Shown piece by piece: positions 1,441-47,923 of a stretch of DNA of 64,000 nucleotides; positions within the stretch are counted from its first letter, which is position 1, and every line of letters begins with the position of its first letter. Origin of the DNA: Bacteroidota bacterium (GTDB lineage: Bacteria; Bacteroidota; Bacteroidia; Bacteroidales; Paludibacteraceae); assembly GCA_017860295.1 (NCBI GenBank), contig JAFNAS010000006.1, positions 62,001 to 126,000 on the forward strand, read 5' to 3'. Made by a program: the position numbers and the translations under genes. The notes beneath the pieces were generated by a model that was given only the letters and a program-made list of their open reading frames with translations, was not told the DNA's origin and did not search any database.

Positions 1441-2682
<1,242 letters not shown>

Positions 2683-2760
2683 TTAAAGGTTATATCAATT
2701 GTTGGATTTAGATTGAATGCAAGCACTTGCACACCCATTTCATTTTTTATAACCAATTGA

Positions 2761-4002
<1,242 letters not shown>

Positions 4003-4017
4003 TTATACAGTGAATAA

Positions 4018-5205
<1,188 letters not shown>

Positions 5206-14871: not shown

Positions 14872-16440
14872 CTACTTCTTCGTAATCGTGTCGCCGATAC
14901 GGAAATAGTCGAAATCGACGTAACCGCCGGGGGTTTTGGTCGAATAATTGAATAAACCAAAACGGTAGCCCATAAAGTGCGGCATCGAATACTCCATTTT
15001 AAGCTGAGATCCAATCGGAAACCACGTTTTTCCATCAAGGCTGTAGAAGAAATATCCGATATCGATTTTATCTCTGAAATCGCATTCCGCCCTCAAATAG
15101 ACAATCTTCCGGGTCAATGGAATACTTTGAGCTTCAACAGGAATCCGTGTTGAACCGTTTACCATTACAATCGATTTAACTCCATTGGAAAACTTAACTC
15201 CTACCTGTCCGAATTTCCGCTGCAAAAGAGCAAGACCAGCAAAATCACCCTCTTTCATGTTCGTCACATCGATAGCGGTAATACCAGAAGAGACCGGGCC
15301 AAACGTACGTTGTGTCAATGTATTTCTTGCCTGAACGAACAGAGTATCGATACGTCCGGTAGTCAGGCGCAGATAGCCTTTCCGTTTCGTTACCGACCAA
15401 AGGCTGTTTTCGGGATTGTGGTTCCACTGCCAAACCAATGGCAACGCAGGTTCGCCGGGTTTACGAGTAAATTCGTCAGAAGAGACAATACCCGGGTTCA
15501 GCCCTTTACTAGAAGGAAGATCAAGCGACTCCGGCAATTTTCCGTTAACCCCTATTACCGGCCAACCATCTTCCCATTTCATAGGAACGATGTATGGAAT
15601 ACGCCCAACAGACCCATAATCTTGAAACAAATAGGCAAACCATTTTCCATCAGGAGTATCAATCATCCCTCCCTGAGCTACACCCTGATCCTGAAAAGCG
15701 ACTGTGCCTTCCCAGGGTCCGGTAATCTTATCGGCTCTGTGCAACACAACAGTACGCATACTATTTCTGGGCCATGTAATATTGAACAAATAATATTTAC
15801 CTTTTACTCTGAAAAGTTGAGAACCTTCGGCCGGAAGCATAATAGGCCCTGATGGAGCGCTTGCATTTTCGATAAGTACTCGCGTTGTCTCTTCTTTCAC
15901 GCCCGAAAGATCCTCCTTCAGTTCGGTTATCATTATCTTTCCACTTCCATAAATTAAATATATCCGTCCATCTTCGTCGAAAAACAGGGAATGGTCATGC
16001 AGCGAAGGCTTGAAGGAATGCTCTACCCAAGGACCTTTTTCAATACTTTTGGTCGCCCATATATATGTTCTTCCTGTTGTTTGGGCAAAGGTTGACACAT
16101 AAAACAGTCCTTTATGATAGCGGATAGAACTTGCCCAGGATCCTTTTCCATAGTTATTTTTTCCATTATTCAGATTTAGAGCATCCATATCGCCCAAAGT
16201 AGAGTAAGCATAATTCACTATTTTCCAATTCACAAGATCTTTCGATTTCATAATGGGCACGCCCGGATTCATGTGCATGGTGGTACTGCTCATGTAGTAT
16301 GTATCACCAACACGAATCATCGACATATCGGGAACATCCGCGAAAATAATCGGATTTTTCGCCTGTTTTGTTTGCGCGAAAATAGAGATAAACACTTGCA
16401 ATACAATAAGAATAGAAATACAAGAATATAGTTTCTTCAT
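14872..16440 (-). CDS. GH43 glycosidase with C-terminal beta-sandwich (XynB-like), copy 1
   Basis: 522 residues, signal peptide about 1-22 (IFAQ). The propeller begins NPIIFADVPDMSMIRVGDTY, with base Asp38; HDHSLFFDEDG gives Asp149 and PAEGSQLFRVKG gives acid Glu205. Residues about 325-522 form the C-terminal beta-sandwich common in this GH43 branch (WQWNHNPENSLWSVT, ending GGYVDFDYFRIGD). These proteins are annotated as beta-xylosidases or alpha-L-arabinofuranosidases. It closely resembles the gene at 20296-21882 in length and motifs, so the two are paralogues. Next in transcription come the hairpin at 14.8 kb and the GH9 gene; upstream lies the broken esterase (66-bp gap). Confidence 0.88.
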   Translation of the reverse strand: MKKLYSCISILIVLQVFISIFAQTKQAKNPIIFADVPDMSMIRVGDTYYMSSTTMHMNPGVPIMKSKDLVNWKIVNYAYSTLGDMDALNLNNGKNNYGKGSWASSIRYHKGLFYVSTFAQTTGRTYIWATKSIEKGPWVEHSFKPSLHDHSLFFDEDGRIYLIYGSGKIMITELKEDLSGVKEETTRVLIENASAPSGPIMLPAEGSQLFRVKGKYYLFNITWPRNSMRTVVLHRADKITGPWEGTVAFQDQGVAQGGMIDTPDGKWFAYLFQDYGSVGRIPYIVPMKWEDGWPVIGVNGKLPESLDLPSSKGLNPGIVSSDEFTRKPGEPALPLVWQWNHNPENSLWSVTKRKGYLRLTTGRIDTLFVQARNTLTQRTFGPVSSGITAIDVTNMKEGDFAGLALLQRKFGQVGVKFSNGVKSIVMVNGSTRIPVEAQSIPLTRKIVYLRAECDFRDKIDIGYFFYSLDGKTWFPIGSQLKMEYSMPHFMGYRFGLFNYSTKTPGGYVDFDYFRIGDTITKK

Positions 16441-16506: not shown

Positions 16507-17699
16507 TCATTGGAAAAGCAACTGTAATGTTTCGGTCAGGTAATGACGGGCATTCATCCATGTATGACCTCCTGTTGTTATCATATTTTTTTGTTCTATT
16601 TTTTCCCCTTTCAATAGATCAATAAACTGTTTTGCTTGTTTATACAAAAAATCTTCATTCCCGACGCCCAGCCATAAAAGTCTCAGTTGCTTATTGGTCT
16701 TCGTAGGATCTGCAGAAACGCCTGAAAAATATTTTTGGAACACTTCGGGCGTCAAATAAGCGCTGTACGAACACATCCACGCAAATTTATCCAAATTGGC
16801 GAATCCGGCAAACAAAGTCTGTCCTCCACCTCTCGAAAAGCCGCCAATGGCGCGATTTTCTCTATTGGAGACAACACGAAAATTGCTTTCGATAAATGGA
16901 ATAACACTATTTATCAGTTCATTATTAAATACTTGATACATCTCAGCAGCTTTCAGCGAAGTAGGATCGGGAGTACCTGTCGGCATATTTCCATAAGGCA
17001 TCACCACAATCATTGGCACTGCTTTTTTCTGTGCAAGCAGATTGTCGAGGATAAAGTTCACTTTTCCCACCTTAAACCAGGTCTCTTCGGTATTGGCACT
17101 GCTTTTTTCTGTGCAAGCAGATTGTCGAGGATAAAGTTCACTTTTCCCACCTTAAACCAGGTCTCTTCGGTATCGGTGGTGCCACTAATAAGGTAGAAAA
17201 CAGGATATTTATTACTATTTTTATTGTATCCGGGAGGGGTATAAACCAACAACGGACGCATTGCGTTTAGTGTTTTCGAATTGTAAGTGCAATAACTGAT
17301 TTGTCCATGCGGAACATTTTGCACCGAATAAATAGCAGGGTAATCGCCAGGAACATCTAATAAGCTACTTTTAAAATGTTCGTTGGGGAAAATGTGGATG
17401 TTGTTTGGGTCGGCAACCGACACTCCGTCAACAATAAAATTGTAGGAATAAATATTGGGGTCAACAGGACCGAGAGTAATGCTCCACACCCCGGATTGAT
17501 CCATTAAAAGAGACTGAGAGCCTTTTATAAACTGGGTGCTGATTTCGACCTTCTTTGCATTCGGCGCTTTCAAAGTAAAAGTAACGGTTCGATCAGGATG
17601 CACAACAGGCGATTCAATAGCGGATACTTGTGCCACAGCAGAAGCAAACACGATAAGAAAAGAGAACAATACAACAACACTTAAAATAATGCTTCGCAT
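16507..17699 (-). pseudogene. CBM48-CE1 esterase disrupted by an 80-bp tandem duplication
   Basis: The reading frame starting at 17699 encodes a signal peptide (about 1-23), a CBM48-like module and the start of a CE1 domain, then leaves frame after residue 202 and stops at 17058. The rest continues in another frame from about 17070 to 16507 (GGFSRGGGQ nucleophile motif, GGHTWMNARHYL for the histidine). Positions 17012-17093 are repeated exactly at 17092-17173, a period of 80 bp, which shifts the frame. Removing one copy restores a single 370-residue protein with all catalytic motifs, the same length as the esterase at 4018-5130. The gene is therefore intact apart from this event, which may be recent, reversible, or an assembly error. 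A short 5'-truncated protein could in theory be made from the internal ATG at 17070. Confidence 0.9.
17012..17173. repeat. Direct tandem repeat, 80-bp period, two exact copies
   Basis: Copy 1 is 17012-17093 and copy 2 is 17092-17173. They match over 82 bases with a period of 80, so the junction shares a 2-bp AT. There is no mismatch between the copies, unlike any other repeat in the window. It lies inside the CE1 domain of the esterase and is the direct cause of its frameshift. Confidence 0.95.
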
Positions 17700-18278: not shown

Positions 18279-20249
18279 CTATTTAGTTTTAACTCTGATA
18301 ACCGTCAACGACATGGCTGGAGCCACATATTCAAATGATTTATGTATTTTCACAGTTGATGTAACCGGAACCACTCTTTGCGGATTATCAAGTGTATTTT
18401 CAGCATCGGCATTACTGGTAAGCACAATCTGTTCTGCTTGCGAAACTATACTTCCAAAGCGACTCAGATTGATTTTCATGGACTTCGGAGTATTCCCAAA
18501 GTTTACCATTTTCAGTATAATATCTCCTGTTTTGCTATCTTTCACACACGAAACTGCCTGATTGATATCCTTTTCGTCCTTTGAAATTACTTTATCGAAA
18601 TAATAATCGCCCTGATTGGCCGAAAACATCTTTTGCACGAAATAATTCGGTGTTAAACTGACATTTACATTATCAAAAAAGATCATATCGGTTTTCCATT
18701 GCGTAAAATTCTTTTTCGCAAACAACGGAGCGTACGAAGCCATCCTCACCACATCGCCATTGCGTTCGAGCGACGTCATATAAGCCGCTTCCGAAATTGC
18801 ATTGCGTAACTTGTTGCCCCAAGACGCATATTCGCCAAGATAAACCTCTGTGGCATTGCGCTTATACGAATCGTAACGATTCTGATGAGAAATAAACCAT
18901 TCGGGACTCGTATAGTAATGTTCGTCCACAATCGGAATTTTCAAATCATCAGCCAGTTTCCAGCCTTTTGTAAAGTCATCTCCATCGGGAGAGGGGCCAA
19001 CTGTTCCAACGACAGTAATTTCGGGATGTTTGACTTTCACGACATTAAAAATCATTTTGAAACGTTCTTCAAATTCGGGAGTAATTTTATCTTCATTCCC
19101 AATGCCGATATACTGAAGATGGAACGGAGCCGGATGCCCTGCGGCAGCACGTTTGGCTCCCCAAACAGAAGTTACCGGACCATTTGCCCACTCGATCAAA
19201 TCGAGCACTTCTTGAATATAATCCTGCATTTCGTTCAATGGAAGGGCTTTCTGTCCGACTCCTCCAATTTGCCACGTACCACCCGAATTTTGACAACTGA
19301 CAGCTGCCGGCAATACAGGCAAAGGTTTAGCGCCTATATCTTCGCAAAACTGGAAGAATTCGTAATATCCTAACCCTGTAGTTTGATGGTATCCCCAGAT
19401 ATTGCGTTGTTCTTTGCGTTGTTCAATCGGACCGATGGTATTTTTCCAGCGATACATATTGCCTAACCCATCGCCATGTGCAAGACAACCACCGGGAAAT
19501 CGAATAAATCGCGGCTTCATATCGGCTAAGAGTTGCGCTAAATGAGCATTCAGACCATTCGGACGATTTTTGAACGTTTTTTCAGGAAAGAGAGAAATCA
19601 TATCAAGAGCCACCTTACCTTCACTCGTAGCTAAAACAACCAAGTTTGCCGTATCGTTACTTGCTATCGGAGCGAGACTTGCTGTGTATTGTTTCCAGTC
19701 AGATGAAGACGTTACCAATTTGGTCTCCGCAAGCATCTTTCCTTTAGGAGTTTGCAAGCTGATCGTAAATGAGACCGGCTCTTTACTGATTTGCCGGACA
19801 AACATAGAAAAATTATACTTGTCGCCCGCTTTTACTACCATACCATCGAACCCGAAATTTTTGATTCCCACTCCCGAAATTCCAGTGTATTTTGCTTCAT
19901 GCCCTATATGCTCGATATCCAGAACCATGTAATGCGGATTGTTGAGATGAATGGGAGATGCGGTTTCTACACTGATTCTCCCATACGAGAATCCGGGAGC
20001 GATGTATTCCCAATACGAAAAAGGATTCCACTCACGGCGTTCGGTCGGATTGTATTCGAACGAGCGATTCTGCACCATTTCGGCATACAAACCGCCATCG
20101 GCCGAATAATTGATATCTTCAAAAAACAATCCGAAAAGGTCGGAACTTATTTTCTTGCCGTCTTGGGCGGCTTGTAAAGAGAAAGAGATAAACAGCAAGA
20201 GAAAAAGAGTTTCAATTGTCGGAAAAAGAGAATGAGATTTTAGTTTCAT
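18279..20249 (-). CDS. GH51 alpha-L-arabinofuranosidase
   Basis: 656 residues with a signal peptide (about 1-28, LQAA). The start SSDLFGLFFEDINYSADGGLYAEM is the classic GH51 opening. Residues about 75-225 hold a carbohydrate-binding-like insert (IEHIGHEAKYTGISG ... EGKVALDMISLFPE) typical of long bacterial GH51 enzymes. The acid/base is Glu386 in IGIGNEDK and the nucleophile Glu473 in VYLGEYAS; RFPGGCLAHGD near 250 is also conserved. The C-terminal beta domain ends SLTVIRVKTK. It releases alpha-L-arabinofuranose from arabinoxylan oligosaccharides by a retaining mechanism. It is the last gene before the terminator at 17.8 kb, 46 bp after the GH43 gene. Confidence 0.94.
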   Translation of the reverse strand: MKLKSHSLFPTIETLFLLLFISFSLQAAQDGKKISSDLFGLFFEDINYSADGGLYAEMVQNRSFEYNPTERREWNPFSYWEYIAPGFSYGRISVETASPIHLNNPHYMVLDIEHIGHEAKYTGISGVGIKNFGFDGMVVKAGDKYNFSMFVRQISKEPVSFTISLQTPKGKMLAETKLVTSSSDWKQYTASLAPIASNDTANLVVLATSEGKVALDMISLFPEKTFKNRPNGLNAHLAQLLADMKPRFIRFPGGCLAHGDGLGNMYRWKNTIGPIEQRKEQRNIWGYHQTTGLGYYEFFQFCEDIGAKPLPVLPAAVSCQNSGGTWQIGGVGQKALPLNEMQDYIQEVLDLIEWANGPVTSVWGAKRAAAGHPAPFHLQYIGIGNEDKITPEFEERFKMIFNVVKVKHPEITVVGTVGPSPDGDDFTKGWKLADDLKIPIVDEHYYTSPEWFISHQNRYDSYKRNATEVYLGEYASWGNKLRNAISEAAYMTSLERNGDVVRMASYAPLFAKKNFTQWKTDMIFFDNVNVSLTPNYFVQKMFSANQGDYYFDKVISKDEKDINQAVSCVKDSKTGDIILKMVNFGNTPKSMKINLSRFGSIVSQAEQIVLTSNADAENTLDNPQRVVPVTSTVKIHKSFEYVAPAMSLTVIRVKTK

Positions 20250-37078: not shown

Positions 37079-39010
<1,932 letters not shown>

Positions 39011-45037: not shown

Positions 45038-47851
45038 TTAGAAAGAAGCCTTCAGACCTACATTAAAGAAACGACACTGAGGAGCACTTCCTATATTAGT
45101 TTCCATCAACTTACGTTCTTTTGCTATGGTAAGCAAACTTTCACCATTGACGTATACGCTCATATCACGAACGAATAAGTTTGTAAAGAGTCTTTTCGGA
45201 AAGTCATATGTAAGCTGTACCCGCGACAGATCAAAACGATCGGTTTTATACCTCCAGAATGTAGAATTCATAAAATTGTTGGTAGTACTGGTAGTCGTCA
45301 AACGAGGATAAGTAGCGGTATTTTTTGTTGCTTCTGTCCAGCGTCCCCAAACCACATTGGAGTATTTTCCGTCTCCATAAACCCAATAGTAGGAATTGTT
45401 CTTGAACCCAACGGCACCGGTATTACCCGTACCCATAGCAAAAAGAGTAAAATTCTTCCATTTCAAAGTAAGATTTATGCCGAAAGTAAATGGAGCTGCA
45501 CCCGAAGCACTATGGCCTAAATTTACCTGATCTTTAGAATCGACCACATTATCACCATTTACATCCTTGTATTTCAGATCTCCAGGCTTCACTGTACCAA
45601 ATTGTTGTGTAGCATGATTCTTTATATCGTTTTGATCTTGAAAAAAGCCTTCACAGATATATCCCCAAGAAGCATCCAACGGTTTACCCGCACGATTTTG
45701 ATAGGCATCATTATAAACCTCATCTCTTCGTACGGCTTTAGAAGAATAAAACATACCCGAAAGTCCAAGCGTACAATCAACTTGTCCTATTTTTTTGTTC
45801 AGATTCACCGTAAAATCAACCCCCGTACGTCTATCATTATTATAGTTCATATAAGGAAGAAAATCACTGAAATAAGATGGATAAATTGTAGCAGATCCTT
45901 GAGTTAACAAACCATTTGTGTTTTGATAAAAATAGTTTGCATCCAATGTTATCAATTTATTCAACAATGAAGCTTCTAACCCAGCCCGATATTCTTTTCT
46001 CTTAATATATGTCAGATTAGGATTGCCTCCTTGTTTAGAAGTAGTTGTCCATCCTCCGGCAGTACCGTCATGCCATTGATACCAACCTCCTTTATATGCA
46101 TAATAACCTTGATACATATAATAGTTTGAAATATCGATATCCTGATTCAAATTTGCATAAGAAGCCGTCAGTTTCAAATTATCGACAAAAGAGATATTGT
46201 CTTTAAAGAAATTTTCATTACTGAGACGCCAGCCCAAAGTGACCGATGGAGAAAACGCGTCCCGATTTCCTGAGGGTAATTTGGCTGAATGTACTTCCGC
46301 TCCTGAAAGATCAAGGTAATATTTATGCTGATAATTATATGTAGCCTGCAAACCGAGATTAACATTGCTGGTACGATGATAAATACTACTGGAACTATTC
46401 GGATCCCTAGAGGTTTGGGTCTGATAACCCCAACCTACCAAAACAGCAGAAACATTATGATCTTGAGCAAAGGTTCGGTTATAATTAAACTGAGAACTGA
46501 AAGACATAGTCTGGGTAAAAGCCGAAGTTCCTACTATTTCACTGGTAGAATGGGTATCACTACCGTACGACGCCAGAGCAGTAATAACGTCTTGCCCATT
46601 TACAGTCGACCAAGTCGGTTGGTAAGTAGTATAACCCACCTTCCAATATTCGGCATAAGAATCCGTATAATCGACACTAAAAACAGTTTTAAATGATAAC
46701 CCTTTCAATACCATTCCCAGATCGGCACCAACCTTCACATCAAACATAAACGAACGGTTCTTATTTTTACTGTAACCGGACACGAGCATATCTGCCAAAA
46801 CGTTTGTTTGATAAGAAGATGCACCTCCAAGAAGATATTTACCGTCTATCACATTATTACTATTAGCAGCAATCGTTTGAAGCGAACTATTGGTTGCATC
46901 AAGCATGCTGATAGGAATTAACGGAGAAAACGAATTAGGTCGTAGCGTAGCTGTATTAGCCCAGAAATCACCTCTACCTGTGTAACTATTAAATATAGTA
47001 ACATTTGCATCGGTTGAAGCCGTAAGCCATTTTGATAAATTCATGTCTACATTTGATCGTATATAAAACTTGTAGTCATTGTTATTCCTCTGCTTTCCAT
47101 ACTTTAACAAGCTATTGTTATAAGACATTCCGAAATTTGCATAATAACGCACATTCTGATTGCCACCGGAAACCTCACCGGTTGCATCGGTTTTGTTATA
47201 TGCTTTTGTCAAATAATCAGAACTCAGCAGATTGATATTCGGATAACGATATGCATTAGTACCAACGGCCGTATTATTAATAACATCCTGACTATACTTT
47301 TGGGTAATACCATCATTGGTACATGCCTCATTATAAAGAGTCATATAATCACTTGAATTCAAATACTTCGGATAACGCTTAGGCACATAAAAACCTGAAT
47401 TCGCACGAATATCAATACGTAACGGTTGTGCTTTCCCTCGCTTGGTTGTAATCAGAATGACCCCTTTTGCAGCTCTACTTCCGTAAAGCACAACCGCACT
47501 AGCTCCTTTTAACACCGTAACGGATTCTATTTCCGAAGAACGGATAAGCGATGCATCGCGGGGAATCCCATCAACCATAACCAATGCAGTTTGTCCCCAA
47601 ACATTTCCATTATATCCTCCCACCAAACTTGGAAGTTCATTGAGACTATAGGTAGAATATGCCTTTCTCATCAAATCAGTCATATTGACTGTCGACACAG
47701 CGCCTAACAAGTCATTCTTGGCCACCGTCCCAAAAGCCACATTTATAAGGCTATCTTTCCCCTCCTGCGCTTTAATGCCCACTGCATTCAGGCAAAACAT
47801 AACAAAAAGAAAATAGCCGATATTTATTTTCATTTTCATTTTCATTTTCAT
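45038..47851 (-). CDS. SusC/RagA TonB-dependent transporter, short form (XusC-like)
   Basis: 937 residues. After the signal peptide (about 1-28, IKAQ) the protein goes directly into the plug region (AFGTVAKNDLLGAVSTV, VDGIPRDASLIRSSEIESVT, KGASAVVLYGSRAAKGVILI). It has no N-terminal carboxypeptidase-regulatory-like domain, unlike the other SusC here, and is about 120 residues shorter. The 22-stranded barrel follows and ends in the aromatic C-terminus VGLKASF. It imports oligosaccharides with its SusD partner. The start lies in a four-fold ATGAAA repeat, so any of four in-frame ATGs could be used. Confidence 0.92.
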   Translation of the reverse strand: MKMKMKMKINIGYFLFVMFCLNAVGIKAQEGKDSLINVAFGTVAKNDLLGAVSTVNMTDLMRKAYSTYSLNELPSLVGGYNGNVWGQTALVMVDGIPRDASLIRSSEIESVTVLKGASAVVLYGSRAAKGVILITTKRGKAQPLRIDIRANSGFYVPKRYPKYLNSSDYMTLYNEACTNDGITQKYSQDVINNTAVGTNAYRYPNINLLSSDYLTKAYNKTDATGEVSGGNQNVRYYANFGMSYNNSLLKYGKQRNNNDYKFYIRSNVDMNLSKWLTASTDANVTIFNSYTGRGDFWANTATLRPNSFSPLIPISMLDATNSSLQTIAANSNNVIDGKYLLGGASSYQTNVLADMLVSGYSKNKNRSFMFDVKVGADLGMVLKGLSFKTVFSVDYTDSYAEYWKVGYTTYQPTWSTVNGQDVITALASYGSDTHSTSEIVGTSAFTQTMSFSSQFNYNRTFAQDHNVSAVLVGWGYQTQTSRDPNSSSSIYHRTSNVNLGLQATYNYQHKYYLDLSGAEVHSAKLPSGNRDAFSPSVTLGWRLSNENFFKDNISFVDNLKLTASYANLNQDIDISNYYMYQGYYAYKGGWYQWHDGTAGGWTTTSKQGGNPNLTYIKRKEYRAGLEASLLNKLITLDANYFYQNTNGLLTQGSATIYPSYFSDFLPYMNYNNDRRTGVDFTVNLNKKIGQVDCTLGLSGMFYSSKAVRRDEVYNDAYQNRAGKPLDASWGYICEGFFQDQNDIKNHATQQFGTVKPGDLKYKDVNGDNVVDSKDQVNLGHSASGAAPFTFGINLTLKWKNFTLFAMGTGNTGAVGFKNNSYYWVYGDGKYSNVVWGRWTEATKNTATYPRLTTTSTTNNFMNSTFWRYKTDRFDLSRVQLTYDFPKRLFTNLFVRDMSVYVNGESLLTIAKERKLMETNIGSAPQCRFFNVGLKASF
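47828..47851. repeat. Hexanucleotide repeat at the susC start
   Basis: CATTTT is repeated four times on the plus strand (ATG codons at 47851, 47845, 47839 and 47833 on the minus strand), giving the protein start MKMKMKMK. Slippage would change the number of start codons without shifting the frame. Confidence 0.85.
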
Positions 47852-47923
47852 GATAATTTTGATTTTTACTAACTACAGACAAAGTGTGCTCCTTCTAACG
47901 ATGTACGATAATTTATGCATTAA

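Follow-up and report, generated by a model that had tools for sequence, protein, structure and literature searches.

An exact 80-bp tandem duplication interrupts a CBM48-CE1 esterase gene in the genome of a Paludibacter-like bacterium that digests plant fibre. Our preferred reading, to which we give a probability of about three in four, is that this duplication is real and recent, that it arose by replication slippage or template switching, and that it left a null, potentially revertible allele. The gene lies in a 64,000-bp stretch of genomic DNA, hereafter called the window, and coordinates refer to this stretch unless a contig is named. The instance is new but ordinary in kind, frame-breaking duplications within genes being already known in bacteria.

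An exact duplication splits a CBM48-CE1 esterase gene

The original prediction described two identical 80-bp units lying head to tail within the esterase gene. TRF reported a repeat at 17012-17173 with a period of 80, 2.0 copies, 100% matches and no indels, and the sequence itself, read directly, contains the duplicated units at 17012-17171 with zero mismatches, in agreement with the predicted coordinates and unit length. The 2-bp AT expected at the junction was found as well, continuing the identity beyond the second unit. The features of the broken gene are as follows.

17058..17699, minus strand: N-terminal ORF of 213 aa, with a signal-like hydrophobic start (by eye), a CBM48-like module and the initial part of the CE1 domain
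16507..17070, minus strand: C-terminal ORF of 187 aa with a GTG start, holding the remaining CE1 domain with GFSRGG and GGHTW
17092..17171, minus strand: first 80-bp unit met by the ribosome, in the original frame, reading ...TEETWFKVGKVNFILDNLLAQKKAVP
17012..17091, minus strand: second 80-bp unit, identical, entered out of frame and read as IPKRPGLRWEK, then TGA
17172..17173, no strand: AT, a 2-bp microhomology past the second period, giving a total identical stretch of 82 bp (80 + AT)
17058..17061, minus strand: GTGA, in which the stop codon of the N-terminal ORF shares bases with a GTG that is in frame with the C-terminal ORF, a possible weak restart site

A search of the window for a 31-bp segment of the repeat gave exactly two occurrences, against 0.00 expected. 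Furthermore, we scanned 1,102,149 bases in 54 stretches, the window included (about a third of the 3,388,860-base genome), for exact tandem arrays with periods of 10-1500, requiring the identical run to span one full period or more and no fewer than 25 bases. Five arrays resulted: periods 14 and 21 were represented by two each, and the fifth was the 80-bp duplication, the only exact array to exceed period 21 in the sampled 1.10 Mb of its own genome. As the sole long-period array in this sample, the duplication is more than a chance occurrence. Two units is the state of one assembly, and the true number could also be higher than two.

The gene runs on the minus strand from 17699 to 16507 (1193 bases) and, instead of the one continuous reading frame of a CBM48-CE1 member, is split into ORFs of 213 and 187 aa, making it a broken member of the family. 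As 80 is not divisible by three, the frame is left after residue 202, and 11 further codons precede the stop; this point of frame loss, which had been predicted, was confirmed in the translation. Removal of one unit had been predicted to restore a protein of 370 residues, a figure that is right by arithmetic alone, 1193 - 80 = 1113 bases being 371 codons.

Pfam Esterase scored 36.2 bits on the C-terminal piece, against a cut-off of 22, and 20 bits, under that cut-off, on the N-terminal piece, in which Pfam CBM_48 reached 20.2 bits, just under its own cut-off of 22.4. NCBIfam profiles gave matches only far under their cut-offs. PDB entry 6rzn matched the N-terminal ORF over residues 27-203 (4e-36) and 6mot matched the C-terminal ORF (1.9e-23); we take these two to be CE1 esterases with an N-terminal CBM48 module. 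The solved relatives of this type (6rzn, 6mot and 7b5v) have the domain order, the GxSxG motif and the conserved His motif in common with the window gene, and the matches to this group cover both of its halves; the window gene differs in being split by the duplication. The GFSRGG and GGHTW motifs named in the original prediction are both present, in the C-terminal piece.

Relatives carry a single frame and the broken gene lacks decay

We took as relatives the best 80 of 101 loci in other genomes that encode a relative. Both pieces of the window gene matched one continuous open frame in all 80 of these loci. The comparison with orthologous genes that had been proposed as a check, when run on these relatives, thereby found the site interrupted in none of them (0/80). 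Since every one of the 80 relatives has a single frame, one unit is the ancestral state and the two-unit state is derived. Genus-mates had an uninterrupted frame at two places (four locus ids), one of which is probably the same gene as L111, a locus that is itself among the 80. A family search with the N-terminal piece gave matches in 85 of 200 genomes and, among the matches listed, one contained an in-frame TAG (G199) and the others none.

Positions were called near-invariant when at least 95% of the 80 relatives had one residue. After the break, the C-terminal piece kept 45 of 45 near-invariant residues, although this agreement is favoured at the patterns by which the relatives were found, these having come from the C-terminal piece itself. 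The kept positions include G-F-S-R-G-G-G of the nucleophile elbow and H-T-W-M-N of the His motif. Before the break, 46 of 48 were kept in the N-terminal piece, the misses being S85 and residue 203, the latter the site of the frame break itself. The description of the gene as an otherwise intact CBM48-CE1 esterase is supported by the uninterrupted relatives and by the residues kept after the break.

The two copies show 0 differences in 80 bp, which corresponds to a divergence of less than 3.7% (95%). This identity sets only a weak bound on age, because a divergence of 3.7% is still allowed and tandem copies can homogenise. The lack of decay is the better argument for recency, and it is on this ground, with copy identity adding only the <3.7% bound, that the original description of the event as recent holds. 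A sister cannot bound the age: in the C-terminal piece, identity to the relatives does not exceed 70%, and the 7 other genus members that were compared yielded no close orthologue. An old pseudogene drifting neutrally has a negligible probability: the identity of the copies would still permit it up to 3.7% divergence, but the 187 codons after the break contain no second stop and have lost no near-invariant residue. A recent event remains our reading.

Predicted consequence of the frame break

The product of the two-unit gene would presumably be an exported fragment in which both catalytic residues, Ser and His, are missing, which would make the allele null. That the duplication would inactivate the esterase gene, as originally predicted, is a sound inference. 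A restart at the overlapping GTG would yield a C-terminal piece devoid of the export signal and of the initial part of the fold; by eye, the C-terminal ORF has no signal-like start of its own. The one-unit state could in principle be regained by slipped mispairing, which would make the allele potentially revertible.

Active enzyme might still be made from the two-unit gene, either by -1 slippage at the A6 run that is present in each 80-bp unit or by a restart at GTGA with complementation between the two halves. The A6 runs, the overlap of the first stop with a GTG of the second frame and the lack of decay after the break are all in keeping with such a product. However, a -1 slip would add 81 bases, that is 27 extra in-frame residues placed within the fold, and the second half lacks the export signal (by eye) with which the first half starts. 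Moreover, the A6 run and GTGA follow from the codons themselves, and no selection is needed to explain them. The phase of the A6 run differs from that of the classical A AAA AAG slippage site. We regard an enzyme produced by a -1 slip at A6 or by a GTG restart as improbable, and the survival of activity in the two-unit gene as a whole as highly improbable, a null allele being the preferred reading.

Contig-tip overlaps and the assembly

The terminal 400 bases of every contig end (25 contigs, 50 tips) were compared pairwise, for a total of 1225 pairs. Exactly 99 bp were common from the tip in ten tip pairs and more than 99 in none of the 1225, and a longest shared word of 79-82 was found in 0 of 1225 pairs. 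End-to-end overlaps left unmerged were observed between C5 and C11 (67 bp), C9 and C17 (95 bp) and C15 and C20 (37 bp). In contig C22, the two ends carry one and the same 99-bp tip in inverted orientation.

Given how de Bruijn graph assemblers work, the ten 99-bp overlaps point to a graph word of about 99-100. With such a word, graph neighbours that were left unmerged would leave a period of 99 and not 80; furthermore, since 82 bp fall short of this word length, a graph path through both units should have required reads spanning the junction. The original prediction had allowed for an assembly artefact. In such a case, one real unit would appear twice after the assembler, scaffolding or gap-filling joined overlapping ends without merging them. 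The duplication is exact, unique in the genome sample and part of a 25-contig draft assembly, points that speak for such an error, and the tip overlaps of 37, 67 and 95 bp show that unmerged overlaps of lengths other than 99 exist, so that a join with an 80-bp overlap, made by a later joining step, is conceivable. Conversely, a plain merge failure would give the period of the ten tip pairs, and the repeat length (80, or 82 identical) does not match that graph overlap of 99. The gene also lies in mid-contig, at 78.5-79.7 kb of 178,292 bases, and no N bases were found in the 1.10 Mb of sampled DNA. The ten overlaps at 99 thus make an artefact less likely while the three other lengths leave some room for it, and overall we consider it unlikely. 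A real duplication, with its junction presumably present in the reads, is the reading we retain.

Placement of the gene among its relatives

DNA matches were found in five of eight genomes of the genus, its own included, the best one elsewhere being 70% identical over about 395 bases. Genus-mates were rejected as orthologues, with about 51% identity in the C-terminal piece and at most 61% in the N-terminal piece, against 70% and 67% for L051. A tree built on the C-terminal piece placed the window row within a set of 44 rows with a support of 100/100, comprising 32 Bacteroidota, 9 Verrucomicrobiota, 1 Planctomycetota and 2 rows without a group. The rows nearest to it by path were L051 (bacterium isolate USDV_maxbin.027) and four Verrucomicrobiota rows. 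The genus-mate copies (L111, from Paludibacter sp., and L004) fall outside this 44-row set. The broken esterase is thus closer to genes of L051 and of Verrucomicrobiota, with 63-70% identity in the C-terminal piece for the first eight loci, than to the copies of genus-mates, at about 51%.

No smaller well-supported set holding the window row was found in this tree, which also flags long branches. The esterase gene may have been acquired horizontally, a suggestion that we treat only as a lead because the placement is not firm and long branches are flagged. A plasmid collection gave 2 records with partial matches, and 41 records, all below 60% identity. The neighbourhoods of the relatives' loci showed no conserved gene order bearing on the question, and the motif TANNTTTG, present 4 times in 4193 bases of L001 against 4.04 expected, was uninformative.

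Gene neighbourhood

Two genes on the same strand lie on either side of the broken gene.

14872..16440, minus strand: GH43 gene on the same strand, located downstream at a distance of 66 bp from the broken gene
18279..20249, minus strand: arabinofuranosidase gene, upstream of the broken gene, with ASD1_dom and Alpha-L-AF_C

We take the arabinofuranosidase to belong to GH51. Four other genes of the window scored above the Pfam Esterase cut-off (1441-2670, 2761-3990, 4018-5163 and 37079-38995), making the broken gene one of five of the esterase family in the window, where they stand among GH8, GH9, GH43 and GH67 genes. The locus looks like one of the xylan-degradation type. Given these four other esterase-family genes in the same window, loss of the broken one is probably tolerated. 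The GH43 gene 66 bp downstream could suffer from polarity.

Three of the esterase genes are consecutive (1441-5163), and two of them have Gly/Pro/Gln/Ala-rich insertions in the esterase domain. The product of the gene at 37079-38995 is a single chain of 638 aa that contains two Pfam Esterase stretches; near the C-terminal end, 75 bp of this gene are 79% identical in DNA to the broken gene. Elsewhere in the window, a 6-bp repeat (47826-47866; 6.8 copies, 82% matches) lies over the start of the gene at 45038-47851, presumably SusC-like, whose product begins MKMKMKMK, which places several in-frame start codons in a slippage-prone array.

Discussion

The simplest origin of the duplication would be slippage or template switching during replication between one AT and another 80 bp apart. 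By arithmetic with equal base frequencies, at least 2 shared bp are expected at about 16% of random junctions; the AT is thus at chance level, compatible with slippage without being evidence of a mechanism. A near-match of five bases at the two ends, ATTGG against ATCGG, is likewise weak. Such inverted repeats as lie close to the ends of the duplication are short or imperfect. Single-strand folding of the region revealed no unusual fold (z 0.21), and a fold-driven duplication was accordingly rejected.

The original prediction also raised the option of an on/off switch by slipped recombination. A selected switch of this kind would convert one unit (on) into two (off) and back, giving mixed populations. 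Phase variation of this type calls for an exact tandem duplication of a length not divisible by three; such a duplication is indeed present and is mechanistically revertible, and the pneumococcal capsule-gene duplications discussed below, which also break the frame, are called reversible in PMC4243769 and PMC4022640. Beyond the repeat itself, however, we found no positive support for this option. The site does not recur in relatives (0/80 interrupted), recurrence being a supporting criterion that is not strictly required; the 2-bp microhomology is what about 16% of random junctions would offer, and the fold is ordinary; and a switch would be unlikely to target an enzyme gene that has four paralogues close by. 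A selected switch is therefore very unlikely. Also very unlikely is the picture of a xylan-locus esterase toggled by expansion and collapse of the 80 bp, such that the population would hold cells with and without the activity. If true, such toggling would amount to division of labour or bet-hedging in fibre degradation.

Under our preferred reading of a recent duplication, the window gene offers a clean picture of a gene just after its inactivation by a revertible mutation. In automatic annotation it would probably appear as two short esterases or as a pseudogene, though the allele may revert. Furthermore, a cheap check for artefacts is to set the length of a repeat against the overlaps between contig tips in the assembly that contains it.

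Besides the solved CE1 relatives, two known systems are close to the present case. With reference to Waite et al. (2001, 2003), PMC4243769 and PMC4022640 describe pneumococcal capsule genes that are switched off by reversible sequence duplications. As described there, and as in the window, a tandem duplication lies within a single ORF; in the capsule genes it abolishes the product and is reported as reversible. In contrast to the capsule genes, for which phase variation has been reported, the window gene is known in one state and encodes a degradative enzyme, for which switching would bring no obvious advantage. In fission yeast ssp1, microhomology-mediated tandem duplications that are reversible are described in a review (PMC13207564). 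These are likewise short tandem duplications of coding sequence, whereas the 2-bp microhomology at the window junction is no better than chance.
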